A DNA stretch of 64,000 nucleotides. It comes from Skermanella pratensis (lineage in GTDB: Bacteria > Pseudomonadota > Alphaproteobacteria > Azospirillales > Azospirillaceae). The DNA is taken from contig NZ_CP030265.1 of the NCBI RefSeq assembly GCF_008843145.1, positions 3,960,501 to 4,024,500 of the forward strand. The letters run 5' to 3'. Shown here piece by piece: positions 39,778 to 50,786 of the stretch. Positions within the stretch are counted from its first letter, which is position 1, and every line of letters begins with the position of its first letter. The position numbers and the translations under genes are program-made. Under the pieces are notes generated by a model. The model did not search any database. It saw only the letters and a program-made list of their open reading frames with translations, and was not told where the DNA came from.

Positions 39778-40359
39778 TTGGAATTGCGCCTTCTGGTCGT
39801 CGATGAGAACCCCGAGAGGTCCGATGTCGTCCTGTCCGGCCTCAAGGAAGCCGGTTACGACGTGGTCGCCACCATCAGCAAGGACGACGATCTGCGCGAG
39901 GGCATCAGGACGCACCAGCCCGACTTGGTCATCATCGACCTGGAGTCCCCCTACCGCGACTATCTGGAGAACCTGATCATGATCAACCGCGAGAACCCGC
40001 GGCCCATCGCGATGTTCGTGGCGCAGGAAGACAGCACGCTGATCAGCGAGGCGATCGAAACCGGGGTCAGCGTCTATGTCGCCGACGGCCTCAGCCCCAA
40101 GATGGTCAAGTCGATCCTTCAGATCGCGATCGTGCAGTTCACAAAATTCCGCAAGCTCCAGGAGGAGCTGGACAAGTCCAAGACCGCCCTGGCCGACCGC
40201 AAGGTGGTCGAGCGGGCCAAGGGCCTGCTGATGGCGCACAAGGGAGTGACCGAAGAAGAGGCATACCGTTTCCTGCGCAAGCTCGCCATGGACCAGAACA
40301 AGCGCCTCGCCGAGATCGCGGAGAACATCCTGTCGCTGTCCCAACTGTTCAAGGGCTGA
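39778..40359 (+). CDS. nasT: ANTAR-domain antiterminator NasT
   Basis: Nitrate-responsive RNA-binding regulator, 193 aa. An N-terminal receiver-like domain (LRLLVVDENPERSD, Asp54 in LVIIDLESP) is joined by a coiled coil to a C-terminal ANTAR domain (KVVERAKGLLMAHKGVTEEE and YRFLRKLAMDQNKRLAEIAE). NasT binds paired hexaloop stem-loops in nas leaders and prevents termination; just such a leader follows at 40598-40729. Translation begins at TTG 39778 with CACAGGAACG ahead; no ATG is available. The usual co-sensor NasS, an NrtA-like nitrate binder that sequesters NasT, is not encoded beside it; it may be elsewhere in the genome. Confidence 0.93.
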   Translation: MELRLLVVDENPERSDVVLSGLKEAGYDVVATISKDDDLREGIRTHQPDLVIIDLESPYRDYLENLIMINRENPRPIAMFVAQEDSTLISEAIETGVSVYVADGLSPKMVKSILQIAIVQFTKFRKLQEELDKSKTALADRKVVERAKGLLMAHKGVTEEEAYRFLRKLAMDQNKRLAEIAENILSLSQLFKG

Positions 40360-40420
40360 GGCGGCCATCGCGCAAGTCTTTGAAAAGCTTCGACTCGCCC
40401 GACGCCGCAGTAATCAAATC

Positions 40421-40455
40421 TTGTGCAGAAACCCGTCGCATTCCGCACTGCACAA
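40421..40455. promoter_or_regulatory. Dyad upstream of the nrtA sigma-54 promoter, possible enhancer site
   Basis: TTGTGCAG (40421-40428) and CTGCACAA (40448-40455) form a perfect inverted repeat with a 19-base spacer, 107-141 bases upstream of the sigma-54 -24 element. Distance and TGCAC-type halves fit an NtrC-like activator site, though the spacing is wider than the classical NtrC dyad, so the protein is uncertain. Confidence 0.4.
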
Positions 40456-40561
40456 TTTTTGACCGGGCATTGATAGGATCTCAGGCATTCTAGCCGGCTC
40501 TGGAAAGGCCGATCGAGACCGGAAGCGAGGCATTCCGCAGTTTTCCGCGCCTGCTCAACTT

Positions 40562-40576
40562 TGGCACGACGCTTGC
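40562..40576 (+). promoter_or_regulatory. Sigma-54 promoter of the nrt-nir-nas operon
   Basis: TGGCAC-GACGC-TTGC is a perfect match to the -24/-12 consensus, followed by T. Transcription would start near 40588, only ten bases before the first ANTAR stem-loop, so the RNA begins almost exactly where the regulatory structure begins. Confidence 0.8.
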
Positions 40577-40597
40577 TAAATGGTTTGGCGTGCGGCG

Positions 40598-40658
40598 TGG
40601 CGATCCAATGGCGGAGCGCCAGTCGCGCAAGACAGTGTCGGTCCAACGGCGGAACGAC
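40598..40658 (+). ncRNA. ANTAR-type tandem stem-loop leader (NasT target)
   Basis: Two similar hairpins. P1: GGCGATCC (40599-40606), loop AATGGC (40607-40612), GGAGCGCC (40613-40620), plus an outer T-A pair. P2: GTCGGTCC (40637-40644), loop AACGGC (40645-40650), GGAACGAC (40651-40658). Each has four base pairs, one A-G or G-A mismatch at the fifth position, three base pairs and a six-base loop with A at position 1 and G at position 4, the features reported for RNA bound by ANTAR proteins. The linker is 16 bases. nasT is the gene directly upstream and a terminator follows. Confidence 0.8.
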
Positions 40659-40672
40659 CTACCCCGGATAAT

Positions 40673-40729
40673 GGCGTCCGAATGCCGAGCGGCTCCTTTC
40701 AGCCCGCTCGACGTTCCGGCGCCTTTTTT
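40673..40729 (+). terminator. Leader terminator of the nitrate operon
   Basis: A 20-base stem, 40673-40692 pairing with 40704-40723 (two mismatches, two G-U pairs), an 11-base loop, then TTTTTT at 40724-40729. It ends 31 bases before the nrtA ATG. Being upstream of the structural genes and downstream of the ANTAR hairpins, it is the expected attenuator that NasT would override. Confidence 0.82.
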
Positions 40730-40760
40730 ATTGCCGAAATTTCGGCCGATGGAGCGAGCG

Positions 40761-42188
40761 ATGTCCAAGGACCCAGCACTGTTCACCTCCAAGCTTTCCG
40801 CCCGGCAGGACCGCCGCGGCATCCTCAAGGCCGGCGCCTCGCTCGCCGGGACCGCGGCACTGCTCTCCGCGATCAGGGCGGTCGCCCCGGCGGGCGCCTG
40901 GGCGGCCGGCACCGACGGGATCGAGAAGCCGACGCTGACCCTGGGCTTCATTCCGCTGACCGACTGCGCGCCGCTGGTGATCGCCTCCGAAAAGGGCTTC
41001 TTCAAGAAGCACGGCCTGGACGTCACGCTGTCCAAGGAAGCTTCCTGGGCGAACATCCGCGACAAGGTGATGATCGGGGCGCTCGACGGCGCCCACATGC
41101 TGGCCGGCATGCCGCTCGCCGCGACGCTCGGCATCGGCGCGATCCGGAAGCCGACGGTCACCGGGTTCTCCATGGACCTCAACGGCAACGCCATCACCGT
41201 TTCGACGGCCCTCTACGACCGCATGGTCGAGATCGACCCCGAGACCATGAAGAAGCACCCGGTCGGCGCCGCCGCCCTGAAGAAGGTGATCGACGCCGAC
41301 AGGAAGGCCGGCAAGGAGCCGCTGACCTTCGCCATGGTGTTCCCGGTCAGCACCCATAATTACGAACTGCGCTACTGGATGGCGTCGGCCGGCATCGATC
41401 CGGACGAGGACGTCCGCCTGATCGTGATCCCCCCGCCGCAGATGGTCGCCAACCTCCAGGCCGGCAACATCCAGGGCTACTGCGTCGGCGAGCCGTGGAA
41501 CGCGCGCGCCGTGCAGGCCGGGATCGGGCGCACCCTGGTGACGAACTACGACATCTGGAACAACAAGATCGAGAAGGTCTTCGGCGTCAACCAGGACTGG
41601 GCCGACGCCAATCCCAACACCCACAAGGCCCTGATCCGCGCGCTGATCGAGACGGCGCAGTGGATGGACGAGCCGGACAACAGGATGGAGGTGGTCGAGA
41701 TCATCTCCCGGAAGGCCTACGTCAACGCGCCGGCCGACGTGGTCAAGATGTCGATGACCGGCACCTTCCAGTACGCGCCGAAGGAACCGGCGCTGCCGAT
41801 GCCGGACTTCAACGTGTTCCACCGCTACGCCGCCAATTTCCCGTGGCGCAGCCAGGCGGTGTGGTACCTGACCCAGATGGCGCGCTGGGGACAGATCGAG
41901 CAGCCGATCAGTTTCGCGAAGACCGCCGAGGCGGTGTTCCGCACCGACATATACCGGGAGGCCGCCAAGGAGCTGGGCGTCGCCTACCCGACCGTGGACT
42001 GGAAGTCGGAGGGAACGCGGGCGGAACCCTGGACGCTGGCGGACGCGACCCGGCCGATCGCCATGGGACCGGACCGCTTCCTCGACGGCCGCGCCTTCGA
42101 TCCGGCCGACCCCGTGGGTTACCTGCGCGGCTTCGAGGTTTCGAAACTCAAGATCGACCTGGACGCCCTCGCCCAGGCGAACGTCTGA
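40761..42188 (+). CDS. nrtA: Nitrate ABC transporter substrate-binding protein NrtA
   Basis: Periplasmic nitrate/nitrite-binding protein of the NrtA/CmpA family, 475 aa. The N-terminus carries a twin-arginine signal (ARQDRRGILKAGASLAGTAA, cleavage after AWA), followed by the SBP fold with TLGFIPLTDCAPLVIASEKG, VGEPWNARAVQAGIG and the ending VGYLRGFEVSKLKIDL. ATG 40761 has GGAG seven bases ahead; an alternative ATG is at 40749. A Tat signal argues that this is the transporter component and not the cytosolic sensor NasS. First structural gene of the operon, 31 bases after the leader terminator. Confidence 0.95.
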   Translation: MSKDPALFTSKLSARQDRRGILKAGASLAGTAALLSAIRAVAPAGAWAAGTDGIEKPTLTLGFIPLTDCAPLVIASEKGFFKKHGLDVTLSKEASWANIRDKVMIGALDGAHMLAGMPLAATLGIGAIRKPTVTGFSMDLNGNAITVSTALYDRMVEIDPETMKKHPVGAAALKKVIDADRKAGKEPLTFAMVFPVSTHNYELRYWMASAGIDPDEDVRLIVIPPPQMVANLQAGNIQGYCVGEPWNARAVQAGIGRTLVTNYDIWNNKIEKVFGVNQDWADANPNTHKALIRALIETAQWMDEPDNRMEVVEIISRKAYVNAPADVVKMSMTGTFQYAPKEPALPMPDFNVFHRYAANFPWRSQAVWYLTQMARWGQIEQPISFAKTAEAVFRTDIYREAAKELGVAYPTVDWKSEGTRAEPWTLADATRPIAMGPDRFLDGRAFDPADPVGYLRGFEVSKLKIDLDALAQANV

Positions 42189-42223: not shown

Positions 42224-43099
42224 ATGACCAGCGTCCCGGTGGACGAGACCACGAACTCGCCCGCAGTCCAGCCACAACCGTCCCTTCCCGCCCTCCCCTC
42301 GGCAGCGGCCCGCCTCCGCGAGCGGCTTTACCAGATGCTGCCCGACATCGTGCTGCCGGCCATCACCCTCCTGGTGGTCCTGCTGGCATGGCACCTGATC
42401 GCCGCCAACCTGGGCGGCGGCTTCCCCGGCATCGGGGAGACGTGGGACCGCGGCGTCGAGCTGCTGTCGGACCCGTTCTACAGCAACGGCCCCAACGACA
42501 TGGGACTGTTCTGGCAGGTGCTCTACTCGCTGGGCCGCGTCATGGCGGGGTTCCTGCTGGCCGCCCTGGTGGGGGTTCCGGTCGGGTTCCTGATGGGCTC
42601 CAGCGCGATCTTCCGCAAGGGCTGGGCGCCGCTGATCCAGATCCTGCGGCCGGTCAGCCCGCTGGCCTGGCTGCCGATCGGGCTGCTGCTGTTCCGGGCG
42701 GTCGATCCCTCCGCGATCTTCGTGATCTTCATCACCAGCATCTGGCCGATGATCCTGAATACTGCCGCCGGGGTCGAGGCGATCCCCAACGACTACCGCA
42801 ACGTGGCCGCCGTCCTGCGGCTCAACCGGATCGAGATGGTCCGCCACATCCTGCTGCCCGCCACCCTGCCCCACGTGCTGACCGGCATGCGCCTGTCGCT
42901 GGGCATCGCCTGGATGGTCATCGTGGCGGCAGAGATGCTGACCGGCGGCATCGGCATCGGCTTCTTCGTCTGGGACGAATGGAACAACCTCAACGTGTCG
43001 AGCATCATCGTCGCCATCGTCGTGATCGGGCTGGTCGGCATCCTTCTGGACATGGGCATGAACCTGATCCAGCGCCGCTTCGACCACTCCAACCGCTGA
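42224..43099 (+). CDS. nrtB: Nitrate ABC transporter permease NrtB
   Basis: Inner-membrane permease, 291 aa, with a Pro-rich cytoplasmic N-terminus of about 40 residues and six TM helices. The EAA loop that contacts the ATPase reads AAGVEAIPNDYRNVAAVLRL. Family blocks LRPVSPLAWLPIGLLLF and AWMVIVAAEMLTGGIGIGFF are typical of NrtB/SsuC permeases. AAGGAT precedes ATG 42224. It lies 35 bases after nrtA and 13 bases before the ATPase gene. Confidence 0.95.
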   Translation: MTSVPVDETTNSPAVQPQPSLPALPSAAARLRERLYQMLPDIVLPAITLLVVLLAWHLIAANLGGGFPGIGETWDRGVELLSDPFYSNGPNDMGLFWQVLYSLGRVMAGFLLAALVGVPVGFLMGSSAIFRKGWAPLIQILRPVSPLAWLPIGLLLFRAVDPSAIFVIFITSIWPMILNTAAGVEAIPNDYRNVAAVLRLNRIEMVRHILLPATLPHVLTGMRLSLGIAWMVIVAAEMLTGGIGIGFFVWDEWNNLNVSSIIVAIVVIGLVGILLDMGMNLIQRRFDHSNR

Positions 43100-43112: not shown

Positions 43113-43913
43113 ATGACCGCATATCTGAGCATCGAGGGCGTCGGCATCACCTTCAACCCCCGGAAGTCGCCGGTCCCGGCGGTGCGCGACGTGGACCTGA
43201 AGATCGCCAGGGGCGAGTTCGTCAGCATCATCGGCCATTCCGGCTGCGGCAAGTCCACCGTGCTGAACATCGTCGCGGGCCTGCTGAAGCCGACGCTGGG
43301 CGGGGTCTTCCTGGAAGGCAGGCTGGTGGACGCGCCGGGTCCCGACCGGGCCGTGGTGTTCCAGAACCACTCGCTGCTGCCCTGGCTGACCGTCTACGAC
43401 AATGTCCGCCTGGCGGTGGACAAGGTGTTCGGCAAGACCCGCGGCGCGCAGGAGCGCCACGACTGGACCCTGCACAACCTGAACCTGGTCGGCATGGCGC
43501 ACGCCGTCGGCAAGCATCCGTCCGAGATTTCCGGCGGCATGAAGCAGCGGGTCGGCATCGCCCGTGCGCTGGCGATGGAGCCCAAGGTGCTGCTGATGGA
43601 CGAGCCGTTCGGGGCGCTCGACGCGCTCAACCGCGCCCGGCTCCAGGACGCCCTGATGCAGATCCAGAACACGCTGCGCAACACCGTCATCATGATCACC
43701 CACGACGTGGACGAGGCCGTGCTGCTGTCCGACCGCATCGTGATGATGACCAACGGTCCCGCCGCCACCATAGGCGAAGTGCTGGACATCCCGCTGGAAC
43801 GTCCGCGCAAGCGCCTCGACCTGGCCGACGACGCGACCTACGCCCATTGCCGCGGCGAAGTGCTGCGATTCCTCTACGCCCGGCATCGTCCCGTCGATGC
43901 CGACGCCGCCTGA
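43113..43913 (+). CDS. Nitrate ABC transporter ATP-binding protein
   Basis: ABC ATPase of 266 aa energising nitrate uptake with NrtA and NrtB. Walker A GHSGCGKST near residue 41, Q-loop VFQNHSLLPWLTVYDNV, signature EISGGMKQRVGIARALA (a GGMKQ variant common in this family), Walker B LLMDEPFGALDALNR and H-loop ITHDVDEAV are all intact. It is short, like NrtD/NasD, without the extra NrtA-like C-terminal domain found in cyanobacterial NrtC. GGAGACACCC lies before ATG 43113. nirB follows after 16 bases. Confidence 0.94.
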   Translation: MTAYLSIEGVGITFNPRKSPVPAVRDVDLKIARGEFVSIIGHSGCGKSTVLNIVAGLLKPTLGGVFLEGRLVDAPGPDRAVVFQNHSLLPWLTVYDNVRLAVDKVFGKTRGAQERHDWTLHNLNLVGMAHAVGKHPSEISGGMKQRVGIARALAMEPKVLLMDEPFGALDALNRARLQDALMQIQNTLRNTVIMITHDVDEAVLLSDRIVMMTNGPAATIGEVLDIPLERPRKRLDLADDATYAHCRGEVLRFLYARHRPVDADAA

Positions 43914-43929
43914 ACCGGAGACATCCGTC

Positions 43930-46401
43930 ATGACCCTGGCAAACACCAAGGAACGCCTCGTCCTCGTCGGCAACGGCATGGCCGGCATCCGCACCGTCGA
44001 GGAACTGCTCCAGCGCGATCCCGACCGGTACGAGATCACCGTGTTCGGTGCCGAGCCCCACGTGAACTACAACCGCATCATGCTGTCGCCGGTGCTGGCC
44101 GGCGAGAAGACCTTCGACCAGATCGTCCTGAACGACCGCTCCTGGTACGACCGGAACGGCATCGCCCTGCTGACCGGCGAGAAGGTCGAGAAGATCGACC
44201 GGGAGGCCCGGACGGTGACTTCCATCGGCGGCCGGACGGTCGGCTACGACCGGCTGCTGCTGGCGACCGGGTCGGACCCGTTCATCATCCCGGTGCCCGG
44301 CCGCGACCTGCCCGGCGTGGTGACGTTCCGCGACATGTTCGACGTCGAGGCCATGCTGAGGAAGGCAGCCGACGGGGGCAGGCACGCCGTCGTGATCGGC
44401 GGCGGCCTGCTCGGCCTGGAAGCGGCAAACGGGCTGGCCGTCAACGGCATGAAAGTGACCGTGATCCACCTGATGGGCACGATCATGGAACGCCAGCTCG
44501 ACGAGGCCGCGGGCTTCCTGCTCCAGCGCGAACTGGAGGACCGCGGCATCGACGTGATCACGAATGCTGACACGAAGGCCATCCTGGGCGAAGGCCACGT
44601 CACCGGCGTGCTGCTGAAGGACGGGCGCGAGATCCCGGCCGACCTGGTGGTCATGGCGGTCGGCATCCGGCCGAGCACCGGGCTCGCCAAGGCCGCCGGC
44701 CTCGCGGTCGAGCGCGGCGTCGTGGTGGACGACCATATGGTGACCTCCGACCCCGCCATCCTGGCGGTCGGCGAATGCGTCCAGCACCGCGGGGCGACCT
44801 ATGGCCTCGTGGCTCCCCTGTGGGAGATGGCGCGGGTCTGCGCCGACCAGCTCGCCGGCAGGCCGGAATCCGCCTATGCCGGCTCGGTCACCAGCACCAA
44901 GCTGAAGGTGACCGGCATCGACGTGTTCTCGGCCGGCGACTTCAGCGGCGGCAAGGACTGCGAGGACATCGTCTTCCGCGACGCCGCGCGCGGCGTCTAC
45001 AAGCGAATCGTGCTGAAGGAGGACAGGATCGCCGGCGCCGTGCTGTACGGCGACACCAGGGACGGTGCCTGGTACTTCCAGATGCTGCGCGAGGCGGAGA
45101 ATGTCGCCCCGCTGCGCGAGACGCTGATCTTCGGCCAAGGATTCGGGGGCCAGGGCTTCGGAGGAGGAGGAGCCGCAAACCCTAAGGCCGCCGTTGCCGC
45201 CCTCTCCGACAGTGCGGAGATCTGCGGCTGCAACGGCGTGTGCAAGGGCGCCATCACCAGGGCCATCGCCGACAAGGGCCTGACCTCGCTGGACGACGTG
45301 CGGACCCATACCAAGGCCTCGGCCTCCTGCGGGTCCTGCACCGGGCTGGTCGAGCAGCTCCTGGAACTGTCGCTCGGCGACGGGTACCAGGCCGCCGCGG
45401 CCGCCAAGCCCCTGTGCAAATGCACCCACCATCCGCACGACGACGTTCGCCGGCTGATCGTGGCGGGAGAGCTGAAGAGCATCCCGGCGGTGATGCAGGC
45501 ACTGGAATGGAAGACGCCCAACGGCTGCCACAGCTGCCGGCCGGCGCTCAACTACTACCTGCTGGCGGCATGGCCGGGCGAGTACAAGGACGACTACCAG
45601 TCCCGCTTCGTCAACGAGCGGGTCCACGCCAACATCCAGAAGGACGGCACATACTCGGTCGTGCCGCGCATGTGGGGCGGCCTGACCTCCGCCAAGGAGC
45701 TGCGGGCCATCGCCGACGTGGTGGACAAGTTCGCCATTCCGACGGTCAAGGTCACCGGCGGCCAGCGGATCGACCTGTTCGGCGTGAAGAAGGAAGACCT
45801 TCCCGCCGTCTGGAAGGACCTGAACGAGGCCGGCATGGTCTCCGGGCACGCCTATGCCAAGGGCCTGCGGACCGTGAAGACCTGCGTCGGGTCCGAATGG
45901 TGCCGGTTCGGCACGCAGGATTCGACCGGCATGGGCGTCAAGCTGGAGCGGATGACCTGGGGCACCTGGACCCCGCACAAGGTCAAGCTGGCGGTGTCTG
46001 GCTGCCCGCGCAATTGCGCCGAGGCGACCATCAAGGATTTCGGCGTCGTCGCCGTGGACAGCGGCTGGGAGCTGTACGTCGCCGGCAACGGAGGCATGAA
46101 GGTCCGCGAGTGCGACTTCCTGGCCAAGGTCGAGACCGAGGAGCAGGTGCTGGAGTATTGCGGCGCCTTCCTTCAGCTCTACCGGGAGGAGGCGCGGTAC
46201 CTGGACCGCACGGCGCCTTGGGTCGAGCGGGTCGGCCTCGACTATGTGAAGAAGCGGGTGGTCGAGGACGACGAGGGCCGCCGCGCCCTGTTCGCCCGCT
46301 TCCGGTTCTCGCAGGTGTTCTCGCAAACCGACCCCTGGGACGAGCGCGCCTCCCGGGGCGTCGACTCCCACGAGTTCGCGCCGCTCGCGATGGTGGGGTG
46401 A
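43930..46401 (+). CDS. nirB: Assimilatory nitrite reductase (NAD(P)H), large subunit
   Basis: Reduces nitrite to ammonium with six electrons from NAD(P)H, in the cytoplasm; 823 aa. Order: FAD/NAD(P)H-binding part (VLVGNGMAGIRTVEELLQRD and VIGGGLLGLEAANGLAVNGM), a BFD-like [2Fe-2S] site near 432-480 (EICGCNGVCKGAI and ASCGSCTGLVEQL), then the sirohaem/[4Fe-4S] reductase repeats with TCVGSEWCRFGTQDS near 655 and SGCPRNCAEATIKD near 690, the four cluster-ligand cysteines. CCGGAG lies upstream of ATG 43930. nirD follows after 5 bases; cysG at the end of the operon makes its sirohaem. Confidence 0.97.
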   Translation: MTLANTKERLVLVGNGMAGIRTVEELLQRDPDRYEITVFGAEPHVNYNRIMLSPVLAGEKTFDQIVLNDRSWYDRNGIALLTGEKVEKIDREARTVTSIGGRTVGYDRLLLATGSDPFIIPVPGRDLPGVVTFRDMFDVEAMLRKAADGGRHAVVIGGGLLGLEAANGLAVNGMKVTVIHLMGTIMERQLDEAAGFLLQRELEDRGIDVITNADTKAILGEGHVTGVLLKDGREIPADLVVMAVGIRPSTGLAKAAGLAVERGVVVDDHMVTSDPAILAVGECVQHRGATYGLVAPLWEMARVCADQLAGRPESAYAGSVTSTKLKVTGIDVFSAGDFSGGKDCEDIVFRDAARGVYKRIVLKEDRIAGAVLYGDTRDGAWYFQMLREAENVAPLRETLIFGQGFGGQGFGGGGAANPKAAVAALSDSAEICGCNGVCKGAITRAIADKGLTSLDDVRTHTKASASCGSCTGLVEQLLELSLGDGYQAAAAAKPLCKCTHHPHDDVRRLIVAGELKSIPAVMQALEWKTPNGCHSCRPALNYYLLAAWPGEYKDDYQSRFVNERVHANIQKDGTYSVVPRMWGGLTSAKELRAIADVVDKFAIPTVKVTGGQRIDLFGVKKEDLPAVWKDLNEAGMVSGHAYAKGLRTVKTCVGSEWCRFGTQDSTGMGVKLERMTWGTWTPHKVKLAVSGCPRNCAEATIKDFGVVAVDSGWELYVAGNGGMKVRECDFLAKVETEEQVLEYCGAFLQLYREEARYLDRTAPWVERVGLDYVKKRVVEDDEGRRALFARFRFSQVFSQTDPWDERASRGVDSHEFAPLAMVG

Positions 46402-46406
46402 GGATC

Positions 46407-46769
46407 ATGAAGGAAGACATCACCTGGATCGAGGTCGGCCGGGTCGCCGACATTCCGCCGGCCGGGGCGCGGGTCGTGAAGACCCCGCGCGGCGACATCG
46501 CGGTATTCCGCACAGCCGACGACGACGTGTTCGCGGTGCGCGACCGCTGCCCCCATGCCGGCGGGCCGCTGTCCCAGGGCATCGTCCACGGCGCGCGGGT
46601 CACCTGCCCGCTGCACAACTGGGTCATCGACCTGGCCTCGGGCGAGGCCACCGGACCGGACGAGGGCTGCGCCGGGACCTTCCCGGTGCAGGTCGAGAAC
46701 GGTCTGATCCGGCTGGGCCTGCGCCTGCCCCCCGGCCCGGCCCTCGGTGTGCCCGGGGCGGCGTCGTGA
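46407..46769 (+). CDS. nirD: Nitrite reductase small subunit NirD
   Basis: Rieske-type small subunit of nitrite reductase, 120 aa. Unlike many NirD proteins that have lost the cluster, the ligand pairs are present: CPH at 48-50 in DRCPHAGGPLSQG and CPLH at about 67-70 in VTCPLHNWVIDLASG, so a [2Fe-2S] centre is likely. ATG 46407 lies 5 bases after nirB with weak AGG/GGTG nearby. The TGA stop overlaps the GTG start of nasA, giving translational coupling. The Pro/Gly-rich tail (LPPGPALGVPGAAS) is unstructured. Confidence 0.94.
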   Translation: MKEDITWIEVGRVADIPPAGARVVKTPRGDIAVFRTADDDVFAVRDRCPHAGGPLSQGIVHGARVTCPLHNWVIDLASGEATGPDEGCAGTFPVQVENGLIRLGLRLPPGPALGVPGAAS

Positions 46770-49390
46770 CCGGCGCCGTCCGCACCACCTGTCCCTATTG
46801 CGGCGTCGGCTGCGGCATGGTCGCCAAGGCCGACGGTGCGGGCGGCTGGACGGTCTCGGGCGACCCGGAGCATCCCGCCAATCTCGGCCGGCTCTGCTCC
46901 AAGGGAAGCGCCCTGGGGGAGACGCTGGGGCTGGACGGCCGCCTGCTGCATCCCGCGGTGGACGGCAGGACCACGACCTGGGACGAGGCGCTGGATACGG
47001 TGGCGAGCCGCTTCCGCGCAGTCATCGACCGGCACGGGCCGGACGCCGTGGCCTTCTACGTTTCAGGACAGTTGCTGACGGAAGACTACTATGTCGCCAA
47101 CAAGCTGATGAAGGGCTTCATCGGCTCGGCGAACATCGACACCAATTCCCGCCTGTGCATGGCGTCGAGCGTGGCCGGCCACCGCCGCGCGTTCGGCGGC
47201 GACGTGGTGCCGGGCAATTACGAGGATCTGGAACTGGCCGACCTGGTCGTGCTGGTCGGCAGCAATCTCGCCTGGTGCCATCCGGTGCTGTACCAGCGGC
47301 TGGCGCGGGCACGGGCCGAGCGCGGCACCCGCATCGTCGTGATCGACCCGCGCCGGACGGCGACCTGCGACGCCGCGGACCTGCACCTGGCGCTCAGGCC
47401 CGGCAGCGACGTCGCCCTGTTCAACGGGCTGCTCGCATATCTGGACCGGGCGGAAGCCCTGGACCGGGGCTACATCGCCCGCCACACCGGCGGTTTCGCG
47501 GAGGCCCTGTCGGCCGCGGCCGGGGAGCCGCAGGCGGTCGCCGCGGCCTGCGGGCTGGACGCCAACGAGGTCGAGCGGTTCTACGGCTGGTTCGCCGAGA
47601 CGGCCGCGACCGTCACGGTCTATTCCCAGGGCGTGAACCAGTCGTCCCACGGGACCGACAAGGTCAACGCCATCGTCAATTGCCACCTCGCCACCGGACG
47701 CATCGGCCGTCCGGGCATGGGGCCGTTCTCGGTCACCGGCCAGCCCAACGCCATGGGCGGGCGGGAGGTCGGCGGGCTCGCCAACCAGCTGGCGGCGCAC
47801 ATGGGCTTCACGCCGGAAGCGATCGAGCGCGTGGAACGGTTCTGGCGGGCGCCCCGGATCGCGCGGCGCGAGGGGCTGAAGGCGGTGGACCTGTTCCAGG
47901 CGGTCGAGGGCGGCCGGATCAAGGCCCTGTGGGTCATGGCGACCAACCCCGCCGTCAGCCTTCCCGACGCCGACCGGGTGGTCCGCGCGCTGGCGTCGTG
48001 CGAGTTCGTCGTGGTCTCCGACTGCACCCGCGACACCGACACGGCGGTCCATGCCGACGTGCTGCTGCCCGCCGTCGCCTGGGGAGAGAAGGACGGCACC
48101 GTCACCAACTCAGAACGCCGTATCTCGCGCCAGCGCGCTTTCCTGCCCCCTCCGGGCGAGGCCAGGCCGGACTGGTGGATCATCGCGCAGGTCGCGGCCC
48201 GCATGGGCTGGGGCGAGGCGTTCCGGTACGGGTCGGCGGCGGACATCTTCCGAGAGCACGCGACGCTTTCGGGATTCGAGAACGCCGGCAGCCGGGTGTT
48301 CGACATCGCCGCGCTGGCCGATGCCGACTACGACACGCTGGAGCCGGTCCAATGGCCCGCGCCGGGAACGCCGCGGCTGTTCGGGGACGGCCGCTTCCAG
48401 ACGCCCGACGGACGCGCCGCCTTCGTGCCGGTTCGGGCAGCACCTCCAGGTACGGCGACCGGCGCCGAATACCCGTTCGTCCTGAACACCGGCCGCATCC
48501 GCGACCAGTGGCACACCATGACCCGCACCGGCCGGGTGCCCCGGCTGTCCAGCCACATCGCCGAGCCATTCGTCGCTATCAACCCGGCCGACGCCGCCGC
48601 GACGGGACTGGAGGACGGAGGGCTCGCGGTGGTCCGCTCCCCCAGCGGCCGAGCCACGCTCAGGGTCAGGATCACCGGCGACCAGCCGGCGGGACAGCTC
48701 TTCGCGCCGATGCACTGGAGCCGGCAATTCTCGGCCGAGGGCGGCGTCAACGCGCTGGTCGCCCCGCTCACCGACCCGGTCTCGGGCCAGCCGGAGCTGA
48801 AGCATACCGCGGTACGCGTGGCCCCCTTCAGACCGGCCTGGACCGCCTTCCTGATCGCCCGGGAGGTAATACCCTCCCCGGAGAGCGCCGAGTACTGGTC
48901 GCGGATCAAGGCGGCGGGCTGCACCGTCCTGACCCTGGCCGGCACCGTTGCGCCGGCCGATATCCCGGCATGGGCCGAGACGCTGCTGCCCCGGCTGCCG
49001 GGGATCGACTATCACGACACCCGGCGCGGCGTTCACCGCTGGGCGCGGCTCGACGGCGACCGGCTGGAGTCCTGCCTGTTCCTCAGCTTCGGTCCCGCCC
49101 TGCCCGCGCGGGAATGGCTGGTCGGCCTGTTCGACACCCCGTCGATCGACACGGATGCCCGCTGCGGGCTCCTGAGCGGCCGGGCGCCGGCCGGACTGCC
49201 GGACGAGGGGCGGGTCGTCTGCGCCTGCTTCAATGTCGGCCTCAACCGCATCGCGCGCGCCATCCGCGACGGCGGGCTGACCTCCGCCGAACAGGTCGGC
49301 GTAGCGCTGAAGGCCGGCACCAACTGCGGATCCTGCATCCCCGAGCTGAAGGAGCTGATCGCCGATGCGCGAAGCGACCGGGCAGCCTGA
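46766..49390 (+). CDS. nasA: Assimilatory nitrate reductase catalytic subunit NasA
   Basis: Cytoplasmic molybdenum bis-MGD enzyme reducing nitrate to nitrite, 874 aa. The N-terminal [4Fe-4S] site is CPYCGVGCGM with a fourth Cys in RLCSKGSALG. Molybdenum/MGD segments include NIDTNSRLCMASSVAG, VMATNPAVSLPDADRV and FVLNTGRIRDQWHTMTRTG. A C-terminal BFD-type [2Fe-2S] domain (VVCACFNVGLNRIARAI and NCGSCIPELKEL, from about residue 815) probably accepts electrons from a ferredoxin or flavoprotein; no NasC-type NADH subunit is adjacent. Start GTG 46766 overlaps the nirD stop. Its 3' end overlaps cysG by 26 bases. Confidence 0.96.
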   Translation: MTGAVRTTCPYCGVGCGMVAKADGAGGWTVSGDPEHPANLGRLCSKGSALGETLGLDGRLLHPAVDGRTTTWDEALDTVASRFRAVIDRHGPDAVAFYVSGQLLTEDYYVANKLMKGFIGSANIDTNSRLCMASSVAGHRRAFGGDVVPGNYEDLELADLVVLVGSNLAWCHPVLYQRLARARAERGTRIVVIDPRRTATCDAADLHLALRPGSDVALFNGLLAYLDRAEALDRGYIARHTGGFAEALSAAAGEPQAVAAACGLDANEVERFYGWFAETAATVTVYSQGVNQSSHGTDKVNAIVNCHLATGRIGRPGMGPFSVTGQPNAMGGREVGGLANQLAAHMGFTPEAIERVERFWRAPRIARREGLKAVDLFQAVEGGRIKALWVMATNPAVSLPDADRVVRALASCEFVVVSDCTRDTDTAVHADVLLPAVAWGEKDGTVTNSERRISRQRAFLPPPGEARPDWWIIAQVAARMGWGEAFRYGSAADIFREHATLSGFENAGSRVFDIAALADADYDTLEPVQWPAPGTPRLFGDGRFQTPDGRAAFVPVRAAPPGTATGAEYPFVLNTGRIRDQWHTMTRTGRVPRLSSHIAEPFVAINPADAAATGLEDGGLAVVRSPSGRATLRVRITGDQPAGQLFAPMHWSRQFSAEGGVNALVAPLTDPVSGQPELKHTAVRVAPFRPAWTAFLIAREVIPSPESAEYWSRIKAAGCTVLTLAGTVAPADIPAWAETLLPRLPGIDYHDTRRGVHRWARLDGDRLESCLFLSFGPALPAREWLVGLFDTPSIDTDARCGLLSGRAPAGLPDEGRVVCACFNVGLNRIARAIRDGGLTSAEQVGVALKAGTNCGSCIPELKELIADARSDRAA

Positions 49391-50786
49391 GACGTTGCCC
49401 TATATGCCCGTCTTCATGGACTTGAGGAAGGGGCGGCCGTGCCTGGTGATCGGCTCCGGCGACATGGCGGGCAACAAGACGGCCCTGCTGCGCCGGGCGG
49501 GGGCCGATGTCCGAAACATGGGCGCCGCCGACTTCACTCCGGCGGCGCTCGACGAAGTCGCCCTGGTGGTGGATGCCGCCGACGACGCGCGCCTGACCGC
49601 GACGCTGGTTGACCTCGCCAGGGCGCGCGGGGTTCCGCTGAACGTCGTGGACAAGCCGGAATTCTGCGACTTCATCTTTCCGGCGATCCTCGACCGCTCG
49701 CCGGTGGTGGTCGCCGTCTCGACCGGCGGCTTGGCGCCGGCGCTGGCCCGGCTGATTCGCCAGCGGCTGGAACTGGCGGTCCCCTCGGCTTTCGGCCGGC
49801 TGGCCCGGCTCGCCGGGGAGTTCCGCCGCAAGGTCCAGGACGCGCTTCCGACCACGCGCCAGCGCCTGCGCTACTGGGACGAGGTTCTGGACGGGCGCGC
49901 TGGCGAGCTGGCGATGCATGGCCGCGACGACGAGGCCCGCGCGGAGATGGAACGCCTGCTCGGCCGGACCGCCGCCGGCGGCGCCGATCCCGGTCCCGGG
50001 ATGGTCCATCTGGTCGGCGCCGGACCGGGCGATCCCGAACTGCTGACCCTGGCCGCGATCCGCGCGATCAAGCGGGCCGACGTCATCCTGTACGACCACC
50101 TCGTCGGGGAGGGCGTGCTGGAGTTCGCCCGCCGGGACGCGGAGCGGATTTCGGTCGGCAAGCGGGCCGGGCGCCATTCGGTGAAGCAGACCGAGATCAA
50201 CGCCCTGCTGCTCGAACATGCCTGCCGGGGCCGGCGCGTCGTGCGGCTGAAGGGCGGCGATCCGCTGATGTTCGGCCGCGCGGGGGAGGAGGCGGAATAT
50301 CTGCGCCGCCACGGCATCGAGGTTTCGATCGTGCCCGGCGTCACGGCGGCGCTCGGCTGCGCCGCGGCGGCGCAGATCCCGCTGACGCTCCGGGGCGTTT
50401 CCCGCAGCGTCCAGTTCGTGACCGCCCACTGCCTGGACGACGACGCAACCCGGGCGATGGACTGGGGCAGGCTCGCCAATCCGGACGGCACGCTGGCGAT
50501 CTACATGGGCCGCAGCCAGCTGGCACATTTCAGCGTCAGGCTGATCGAGGCCGGGCTGTCGCCCGACACGCCGGCCGCCGCCATCGAGAACGGCACCCGT
50601 CCCGACGAGCGCCGCTGCTTCGCGACGCTGGCGACCCTGCCGGCCCGCGCCGCCGCGGAACTGGGCGACGGGCCGACGCTGGTCATGGTCGGCGCGGCGA
50701 TCGGCCACCGCCCGCGGGAGGCCGCCGTCCCGCGGGACGAACCGGAGCCGGCGCGCTACGCGATGGAGCGAGCCGGCGCCGGTTGA
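49365..50786 (+). CDS. cysG: Sirohaem synthase (fused CysG)
   Basis: Trifunctional enzyme of 473 aa making sirohaem for NirB. The N-terminal third is the precorrin-2 dehydrogenase/ferrochelatase: FMDLRKGRPCLVIGSGDMAG (Rossmann Gly motif G-x-G-x-x-A), then NVVDKPEFCDFIFPAILDRS and VVAVSTGGLAPALARLIRQR. From about residue 215 is uroporphyrinogen-III methyltransferase: VHLVGAGPGDPELLTLAAIR, ADVILYDHLV, VVRLKGGDPLMFGRAGEE and FVTAHCLDDD. ATG 49365 overlaps the end of nasA. The 3' end overlaps the convergent glycosyltransferase gene by 31 bases. Last gene of the nitrate operon. Confidence 0.95.
   Translation: MREATGQPETLPYMPVFMDLRKGRPCLVIGSGDMAGNKTALLRRAGADVRNMGAADFTPAALDEVALVVDAADDARLTATLVDLARARGVPLNVVDKPEFCDFIFPAILDRSPVVVAVSTGGLAPALARLIRQRLELAVPSAFGRLARLAGEFRRKVQDALPTTRQRLRYWDEVLDGRAGELAMHGRDDEARAEMERLLGRTAAGGADPGPGMVHLVGAGPGDPELLTLAAIRAIKRADVILYDHLVGEGVLEFARRDAERISVGKRAGRHSVKQTEINALLLEHACRGRRVVRLKGGDPLMFGRAGEEAEYLRRHGIEVSIVPGVTAALGCAAAAQIPLTLRGVSRSVQFVTAHCLDDDATRAMDWGRLANPDGTLAIYMGRSQLAHFSVRLIEAGLSPDTPAAAIENGTRPDERRCFATLATLPARAAAELGDGPTLVMVGAAIGHRPREAAVPRDEPEPARYAMERAGAG

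Follow-up and report, generated by a model that had tools for sequence, protein, structure and literature searches.

A nitrate operon leader in Skermanella pratensis with a sigma-54-type promoter, three ANTAR-type hexaloop hairpins and a terminator that overlaps the last of them

The window, i.e., the whole stretch of 64,000 nucleotides that was analysed, corresponds to positions 3960501-4024500 of the single-contig, 5.87-Mb chromosome of a Skermanella strain, S. pratensis. At the locus discussed here, the nearest named relatives are Skermanella stibiiresistens and S. aerolata, with 91 and 89% identity, respectively, in the first operon protein. All features of the locus given below are on the forward strand and are numbered from the start of the window. 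A nasT-like gene (39778..40359; TTG start, 193 aa) is followed by a leader and then by nrtA-, nrtB-, and nrtC-like genes, nirB, nirD, a gene for a nitrate reductase-type enzyme, and cysG. The first of these (40761..42188) encodes a nitrate-type substrate-binding protein, called NrtA (Pfam NMT1_2, 327 bits), with NrtC/CmpC chains and NrtA 2g29 as its solved relatives; its sequence DRRGILKAG contains what we take to be a Tat-like signal motif. Next come an nrtB-like permease gene (42224..43099; PF00528, 86 bits on 42251-43099), a nitrate ABC ATPase gene of the nrtC/D type (43113..43913; TIGR01184, 344 bits), nirB for the large subunit of nitrite reductase (43897..46401; TIGR02374, 963 bits), a gene for a nirD-like Rieske protein (46407..46769; PF00355/PF13806), one for a molybdopterin enzyme of the assimilatory nitrate reductase type (46766..49390; PF00384, 255 bits), and the siroheme synthase gene cysG (49365..50786; NF007922, 514 bits, above the cut-off). 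Against a NasC-like model, the molybdopterin enzyme scored 415 bits, under the model's cut-off of 1100.

Five Skermanella leaders were compared, i.e., those of the window, of two further genomes (G001 and G002), of S. stibiiresistens and of S. aerolata (loci L009 and L010 duplicate the S. stibiiresistens and S. aerolata leaders). A ribosome-binding site, GGAG (40751..40754), precedes the ATG at 40761, and both are kept in all five. A small palindrome, GCCGAAATTTCGGC, is located directly before this site at 40733-40746, and S. aerolata has a shorter form of it. Further upstream, 3' of nasT, an inverted repeat with a T run (40414-40462) was considered as the terminator of nasT, but it was set aside because its 5' arm lacks conservation in the other Skermanella.

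Between nasT and the operon lies a sigma-54-type -24/-12 promoter, TGGCACGACGCTTGC (40562..40576), which matches the consensus exactly and has its predicted start near 40588. The window contains no other match, either exact or with up to one mismatch; since 1.48 matches with at most one mismatch are expected by chance, the motif alone, taken out of its context, is not significant. Its TGGCACG...TTGC is kept in the five Skermanella leaders. The promoter had been placed here in a preliminary description of the locus, where it was also proposed that nitrogen limitation opens transcription. The promoter itself stands. By analogy with known biology, the motif is consistent with such control, and the genome contains an ntrC homologue (738 bits, above the model's cut-off). 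However, among the matches listed, no NtrC-type site was found between 39118 and 41253 with up to three mismatches to TGCACYN5RGTGCA, which we take to be the consensus and from which divergent sites could escape, and in the only rpoN gene found in the assembly, a frameshift a little ahead of the RpoN box puts the DNA-binding end into another frame (C1:1046301-1048600, L236). The frameshift could reflect either a mistake in the assembly or a genuine loss.

Downstream of the promoter, the leader contains three hairpins with a hexaloop that has A at the first and G at the fourth position (A1/G4). P1, UGGCG-A-UCC[AAUGGC]GGA-G-CGCCA (40598..40621), has the position of an upstream or "recruitment" hairpin, and folding predicts a longer stem for it (40590-40628), which was absent from the preliminary description. 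P2, GUCG-G-UCC[AACGGC]GGA-A-CGAC (40637..40658), is an extra, middle hexaloop hairpin, separated from P1 by 15 nt and from P3 by 6 nt. P3, CGGAU[AAUGGC]GUCCG (40665..40680), likewise absent from that description, lies 43 nt from P1 and has a loop identical to that of P1, AAUGGC; its closing pair is U-G, not C-G. An intrinsic terminator (40670..40729) is evident both as an inverted repeat, with arms at 40670-40692 and 40704-40726, and in the free fold of the full leader. Its 5' arm starts in the P3 loop, its 3' arm ends at 40723, and six T follow at 40724-40729. Bases 40673-40680, i.e., the P3 loop from 40673 onward and the 3' arm of P3, are common to P3 and the terminator, and P2 has no overlap with the terminator arms. 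Each of the three hairpins has a stem of at least 3 bp below an A1/G4 hexaloop, as expected of ANTAR targets, which come as at least a pair, and the last one overlaps the terminator, with mutual exclusion of the two structures predicted by folding. As the dual ANTAR motif consists of two hairpins only and this leader has three hexaloops, it is a variant, not a member, of that motif. P1 and P2, each with A1 and G4, and the long terminator with six T before nrtA had already been recognized and are as described. They had also been read as tandem ANTAR hairpins; both hairpins exist, but as to the working pair, comparison and folding point to P3.

In the window, none of the Rfam families reaches its gathering score. 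The nearest relevant family is the narK RNA (RF03032), which comprises one hairpin only; its CC[AACGGC]GG hairpin aligns to the P2 loop with 17.2 bits against a gathering score of 43.2. Three A1/G4 hexaloop hairpins with a score of at least 12 within 100 nt occur on the forward strand of the window only at the leader. Single hairpins that score as well as P3 are found 45 times per strand in the window. A lone hairpin of this grade is therefore common by chance, and the case for P3 rests on its place and conservation. When the genome was searched with a covariance model built on P3 and the terminator, the leader itself was the only find (41 bits; the next match had 19.8 bits, E 8.6), for which reason we claim no wider regulon.

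Folding predictions agree with a stepwise formation of the three hairpins. For the prefix 40588-40690, exactly three hexaloop hairpins are predicted, both as the minimum and as the centroid, although the prefix is no more stable than its shuffles (z -0.4). The full leader has a z of -2.5, and 4 of 200 shuffles were equally stable. When the 3' end is allowed to grow, P1 is predicted from 40620, P2 from 40658, and P3 from 40679, the latter missing only at 40692, and P3 is displaced from 40720 in the predicted path, as the 3' arm of the terminator emerges. The free fold of 40588-40737 contains the terminator and has -69.4 kcal/mol, including some pairs with bases past the T run; with P3 held, the same stretch has -62.2 kcal/mol. 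Because the free fold is better by 7.2 kcal/mol, the terminator is predicted to be favored when no protein is bound.

A different view of this leader is that P1 and P2 form a complete dual ANTAR motif, which would act on a terminator that it does not overlap, with P3 as a by-product of the terminator sequence. The two hairpins are indeed alike (UCC[AAYGGC]GGA with a purine mismatch), and a hairpin like P3 could arise singly by chance, as noted above. Perhaps, such a pair would act through pairing of the 3' arm of P2 with the 3' arm of the terminator, an alternative fold that had been suggested in the preliminary description. The complement for it exists as a repeat and extends over 10 nt. However, when this pairing (40651-40656 with 40712-40717) was enforced, the fold had -61.6 kcal/mol, 7.8 kcal/mol worse than the free fold, and the pairing was set aside, as constrained folding does not favor it. 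Conservation, too, speaks against this view. Across the Skermanella leaders compared, all five share the P1 core (40599-40620), P2, the stretch between P2 and P3, and P3 letter by letter, and only the outermost P1 base, the spacer between promoter and P1, the linker between P1 and P2, and the terminator apex vary. In the terminator of S. aerolata, changes are present on both sides with pairing kept (alignment read by eye). The 5' arm of P3, CGGAU (40665-40669), lies outside the terminator arms, yet it is invariant. This invariance of P1 to P3 in the compared sequences argues for function; since the pairs do not vary within the genus, covariation of P1 to P3 cannot be assessed there.

Further evidence comes from relatives. 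Using the operon binding protein as a query, 80 loci were gathered, and a hexaloop hairpin of which one arm is reused in a terminator before a T run was found in 23 of them by one scripted rule, which overlooked S. stibiiresistens and, in four loci, flagged two hairpins each. Among these 23, the hairpin is mostly GGAC[AANGGC]GUCC, and the counterpart of P3 in relatives is usually GGAY[AANGGC]GUCC; an upstream A1/G4 hexaloop is present in 18 and a sigma-54-like promoter in 22 of them. The terminator-overlapping hexaloop is thus kept in relatives, and in published dual motifs it is likewise the second hairpin that overlaps the terminator, according to the parts of the literature consulted (PMC3369931, PMC7496416). 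Because related leaders keep such a hairpin, P3, and not P2, likely corresponds to the terminator-overlapping, i.e., antitermination, hairpin of the dual motif. That P1 and P2 suffice and P3 is a by-product is, in our opinion, very improbable.

A larger collection was obtained with pattern scans, which found long leaders in 13 and short ones in 15 of 398 genomes of the phylum, and long leaders in 9 of 369 genomes of another class (two of them already in the phylum set); reversed-pattern controls gave none. The collected set comprises 67 leaders. After removal of four near-copies, P1 was present in 53 of 63 leaders according to the P1 rule. Its loop starts 36-38 nt past the TGG of the -24 element in 26 of these 53; the distance is 45 nt in the window and 42 nt in S. 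aerolata. The closing pair is C-G in 51 of the 53 leaders, and pairs 2-8 show five to six standard pair types over 52 distinct hairpins. The summed paired fraction of these 52 hairpins is 6.34, against a maximum of 4.35 in 1000 shuffles, and in a thinned set of 41 P1 sequences it is 6.32 against 4.46 in shuffles; the inner pairs are biased toward pairing in these figures, because the P1 rule demanded three pairs. Judging by these sequences, P1 stems covary across relatives; within Skermanella, as described above, neither the P1 core nor P2 or P3 varies. Among the pattern-selected leaders, hairpins of the P3 type showed no two-sided changes, as the pattern fixed them, and for P3 and the base of the terminator, counts of covariation are uninformative because the leaders were chosen by pattern.

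The extra hexaloop of Skermanella recurs in other leaders. The 67 leaders, less five redundant ones, ten without P1 by the rule, and 25 with a linker of <20 nt, leave 27 with room for a middle hairpin. In nine of them, P1 and the last hairpin enclose a middle A1/G4 hexaloop (L165, L150, L156, L153, Skermanella, L179, L183, L040, and L053), against 0.28 expected from dinucleotide shuffles; the nine represent about seven groups, as L153 and L165 belong to the same family and L040 and L053 are alike, and the figures are uncorrected for kinship. Counted by loops, nine of 13 middle six-base loops are A1/G4, where one in sixteen would give 0.81. With a stricter score and without two Azospirillaceae leaders (L011 and L015), the count is nine of ten middle loops in 23 leaders. 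L040 (Thiobacillaceae) and L053 (Sideroxydans) have a common middle loop, AGYGCU, on differing stems, apparently a separate three-hexaloop layout.

Within the Azospirillaceae, 55 of 82 genomes had a match at E 0.05 to a covariance model that combines the last hairpin with the terminator. Of 51 loci fetched, 38 were processed by script and gave 30 distinct leaders; without Skermanella, 22 of 29 have P1 and a usable linker. They contain 31 middle six-base loops, of which eight are A1/G4, 18 G1/G4, one Y1/G4, and four of other types, against shuffle expectations of 0.56, 0.66, 0.88, and 4.44, respectively. A middle A1/G4 loop is present in six of the 22 leaders, which are mostly from two genera and hence non-independent. 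Two leaders, L222 and L225 (genomes G825 and G841), even have four consecutive A1/G4 hexaloops, the last of which overlaps the terminator. The G1/G4 loops of sequence GACGAC were not counted as ANTAR sites, because their end bases can pair, leaving a tetraloop. A middle hairpin GGUUC[GACGAC]GAACC beside the antitermination hairpin recurs in one Azospirillaceae genus (L188, L189, L199, L220, L221, L223, L224, L227, L228, and L230-L234), and these loci often have another middle stem as well, the loop of which reads GACGNN. As far as the sequences go, extra A1/G4 hexaloops are a recurrent variant among related leaders.

These data also bear on the role of P2. Conceivably, P2 serves as a structural spacer by which P1 is brought close to P3, with NasT binding elsewhere than at P2. 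In several further long leaders, the middle stems end in loops of other types (e.g., L147, L149, and L160), which favors the spacer view for those leaders. Also, the remaining 18 of the 27 leaders with room have no middle A1/G4 hexaloop, and many middle loops in the Azospirillaceae are the GACGAC type discussed above. In Skermanella, however, P2 carries the loop AACGGC with the same closing pairs as P1, six-base middle loops elsewhere are mostly A1/G4 by both scores, and in the Azospirillaceae, the fourth base is G in 27 of the 31 middle loops, compared with roughly one in three in shuffles. We therefore consider a pure spacer role for P2 rather doubtful.

The protein that would act on these hairpins is presumably encoded just upstream. 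The nasT-like product consists of a degenerate receiver domain (Response_reg, 41.6 bits) and an ANTAR domain (residues 135-185; Pfam ANTAR, 80.2 bits), and it is the only ANTAR protein found in the genome (one PF03861 match); thus, a NasT with REC-like and ANTAR domains adjoins the operon. Its best solved relatives are 1s8n, 6wsh/6ww6, and 4akk, the latter two of which we take to be EutV and NasR, respectively. In an alignment to EutV, read by eye, the receiver domain is without the usual threonine/serine and lysine, from which it appears more likely that NasT is controlled by a partner protein than by a kinase.

In known systems, such a partner is NasS, which is reported to hold NasT inactive until nitrate binds (PMC3795266). 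A separate nasS was not found in five Skermanella genomes, each of which has one PF13379 protein of >200 bits. This protein is the operon's own, and the next has about 121 bits or less. Nor is there an NrtA/NasS-type gene between nasT and the operon in three Skermanella loci (the window, L036, and L037). In two genomes of the same family (G005 and G010), a PF13379-type protein is encoded beside nasT, and in a third (G007) one is encoded after nasT, across the leader. In a tree of 125 rows, made with a quick method, a branch with 99% support leaves the Skermanella binding protein together with alphaproteobacterial proteins encoded next to nasT, and it is grouped with operon-encoded binding proteins, some of which have a signal and others none (called by a simple pattern). 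The operon binding protein was considered as NasS itself and rejected, as it groups with the operon-encoded proteins and as the nasT-adjacent protein of L068, from another group, is located across that branch.

Without NasS, nitrate might not gate the leader at all: NasT would always be free, the leader would attenuate, and control would be at the sigma-54 promoter alone. The lack of a second protein of NrtA/NasS grade in the five Skermanella genomes, and between nasT and the operon in the three loci, fits with this. It is harder to reconcile with the strong conservation of the leader; moreover, the single Tat-signal binding protein could act as the partner, and only one such protein was also found in five of 12 other chosen genomes, for two of which completeness is known. 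Hence, nitrate-independent operation of the leader is considered unlikely. As a guess, and one to which we attach little confidence, the exported Tat-signal binding protein, which would be folded in the cytoplasm before export, doubles as the NasT sensor. In three other genomes (G803, G809, and G810; loci L038, L046, and L053), nasT is followed by a lone nitrate-binding protein with a Tat signal; these genomes are possibly incomplete.

Very probably, this is an antitermination leader fed by a sigma-54 promoter, with P1 and P2 for recruitment and P3 as the antitermination hairpin, and the operon would be read while NasT holds P3. RNA from the promoter would end by default at 40724-40729. In emerging RNA, P1 would fold first, then P2, and then P3. 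As P3 shares bases with the 5' arm of the terminator, NasT-held P3 would keep the terminator from full closure, and the nitrate operon would be read. P1 and P2, as upstream NasT hexaloops, would take up the protein and pass it to P3, with P2 bridging the gap. A leader of this general kind, with a sigma-54 promoter and NasT/ANTAR antitermination, had been proposed before, and this holds up well in view of the REC-ANTAR gene upstream, the A1/G4 loops, the covariation of P1, and the NtrC homologue. The accompanying suggestion that the NasT encoded upstream decides read-through left out the sensor, and no separate nasS was found in the five Skermanella genomes.

The architecture resembles known ANTAR systems in several respects. 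By definition, the target has been a pair of hairpins that carry A1 and G4, and the corresponding screen asked for a terminator overlapping the second hairpin (Ramesh 2012, PMC3369931, consulted in part). For EutV, P1 serves as the recruitment and P2 as the antitermination hairpin, extension of the linker by 20 nt abolishes antitermination, and the dimer was argued to touch one hexaloop at a time, as described in the available part of Walshe 2022 (PMC8934654). EutV/eut, NasR/nasF, and AmiR/amiE share with the present leader the A1/G4 hexaloops, a last hairpin over the terminator, an ANTAR protein, and a nitrogen operon, as far as covered by the sections consulted (PMC3369931, PMC8934654, PMC7496416). 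They have two hexaloops, whereas Skermanella has three and its relatives up to four. Selected NasR targets reportedly favor a C-G closing pair (PMC7496416), in contrast to the U-G pair of P3. The NasS-NasT systems of Paracoccus denitrificans, Azotobacter vinelandii, and Bradyrhizobium diazoefficiens are, in the portions seen, similar in combining a REC-ANTAR protein, a nitrate or denitrification operon, and leader hairpins (PMC3795266, PMC5424462, PMC6759348), but in Skermanella no nasS was found beside nasT or elsewhere at that grade.

More than two hexaloops have been hinted at before. A three-hexaloop RNA was noted in the case of EutX/rli55, where a single extra hexaloop lies beside a dual motif; judging from the excerpts consulted, that is a sequestering small RNA, unlike an operon leader whose last hairpin overlaps the terminator (PMC8934654). 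"A series of regulatory hairpins" is mentioned, with data not shown, in an excerpt of PMC3795266, and for Desulfotomaculum acetoxidans, the accessible part of PMC3369931 gives 13 ANTAR hits, distributed over six transcription units. Apart from these cases, the texts consulted describe targets of two hairpins or leave the number of hairpins unspecified. Genes for ANTAR proteins (COG3707), nitrate transport, and nitrite reductase are among those to which a survey, in its available part, assigns predicted sigma-54 promoters, and that part is without leader-hairpin analysis (PMC12316311). Among the literature matches listed, taken at the level of title and start of abstract and outside subscription literature, there was no description of an ANTAR-type operon leader in which the hexaloop hairpins number more than two. 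NasT/ANTAR antitermination behind a sigma-54 promoter is thus of a known kind, and the architecture with extra hexaloops is the new part.

It is possible, and we put it forward tentatively, that sigma-54 nitrate leaders with two to four NasT hexaloops are relay arrays, in which a NasT dimer would load on the first hairpin and be passed along, one hairpin after another, to the one that overlaps the terminator. If true, distances at which a plain linker fails would become usable. Loci without nasS raise the question of what senses nitrate there. Multi-hexaloop leaders would also call for a broader search model of ANTAR targets than the present one, which is based on two hairpins. Natural leaders with three or four hexaloops separate two published models of ANTAR action: in the case of bridging, one pair would be used, whereas in the case of hopping, each added hexaloop would help and the middle one would matter.
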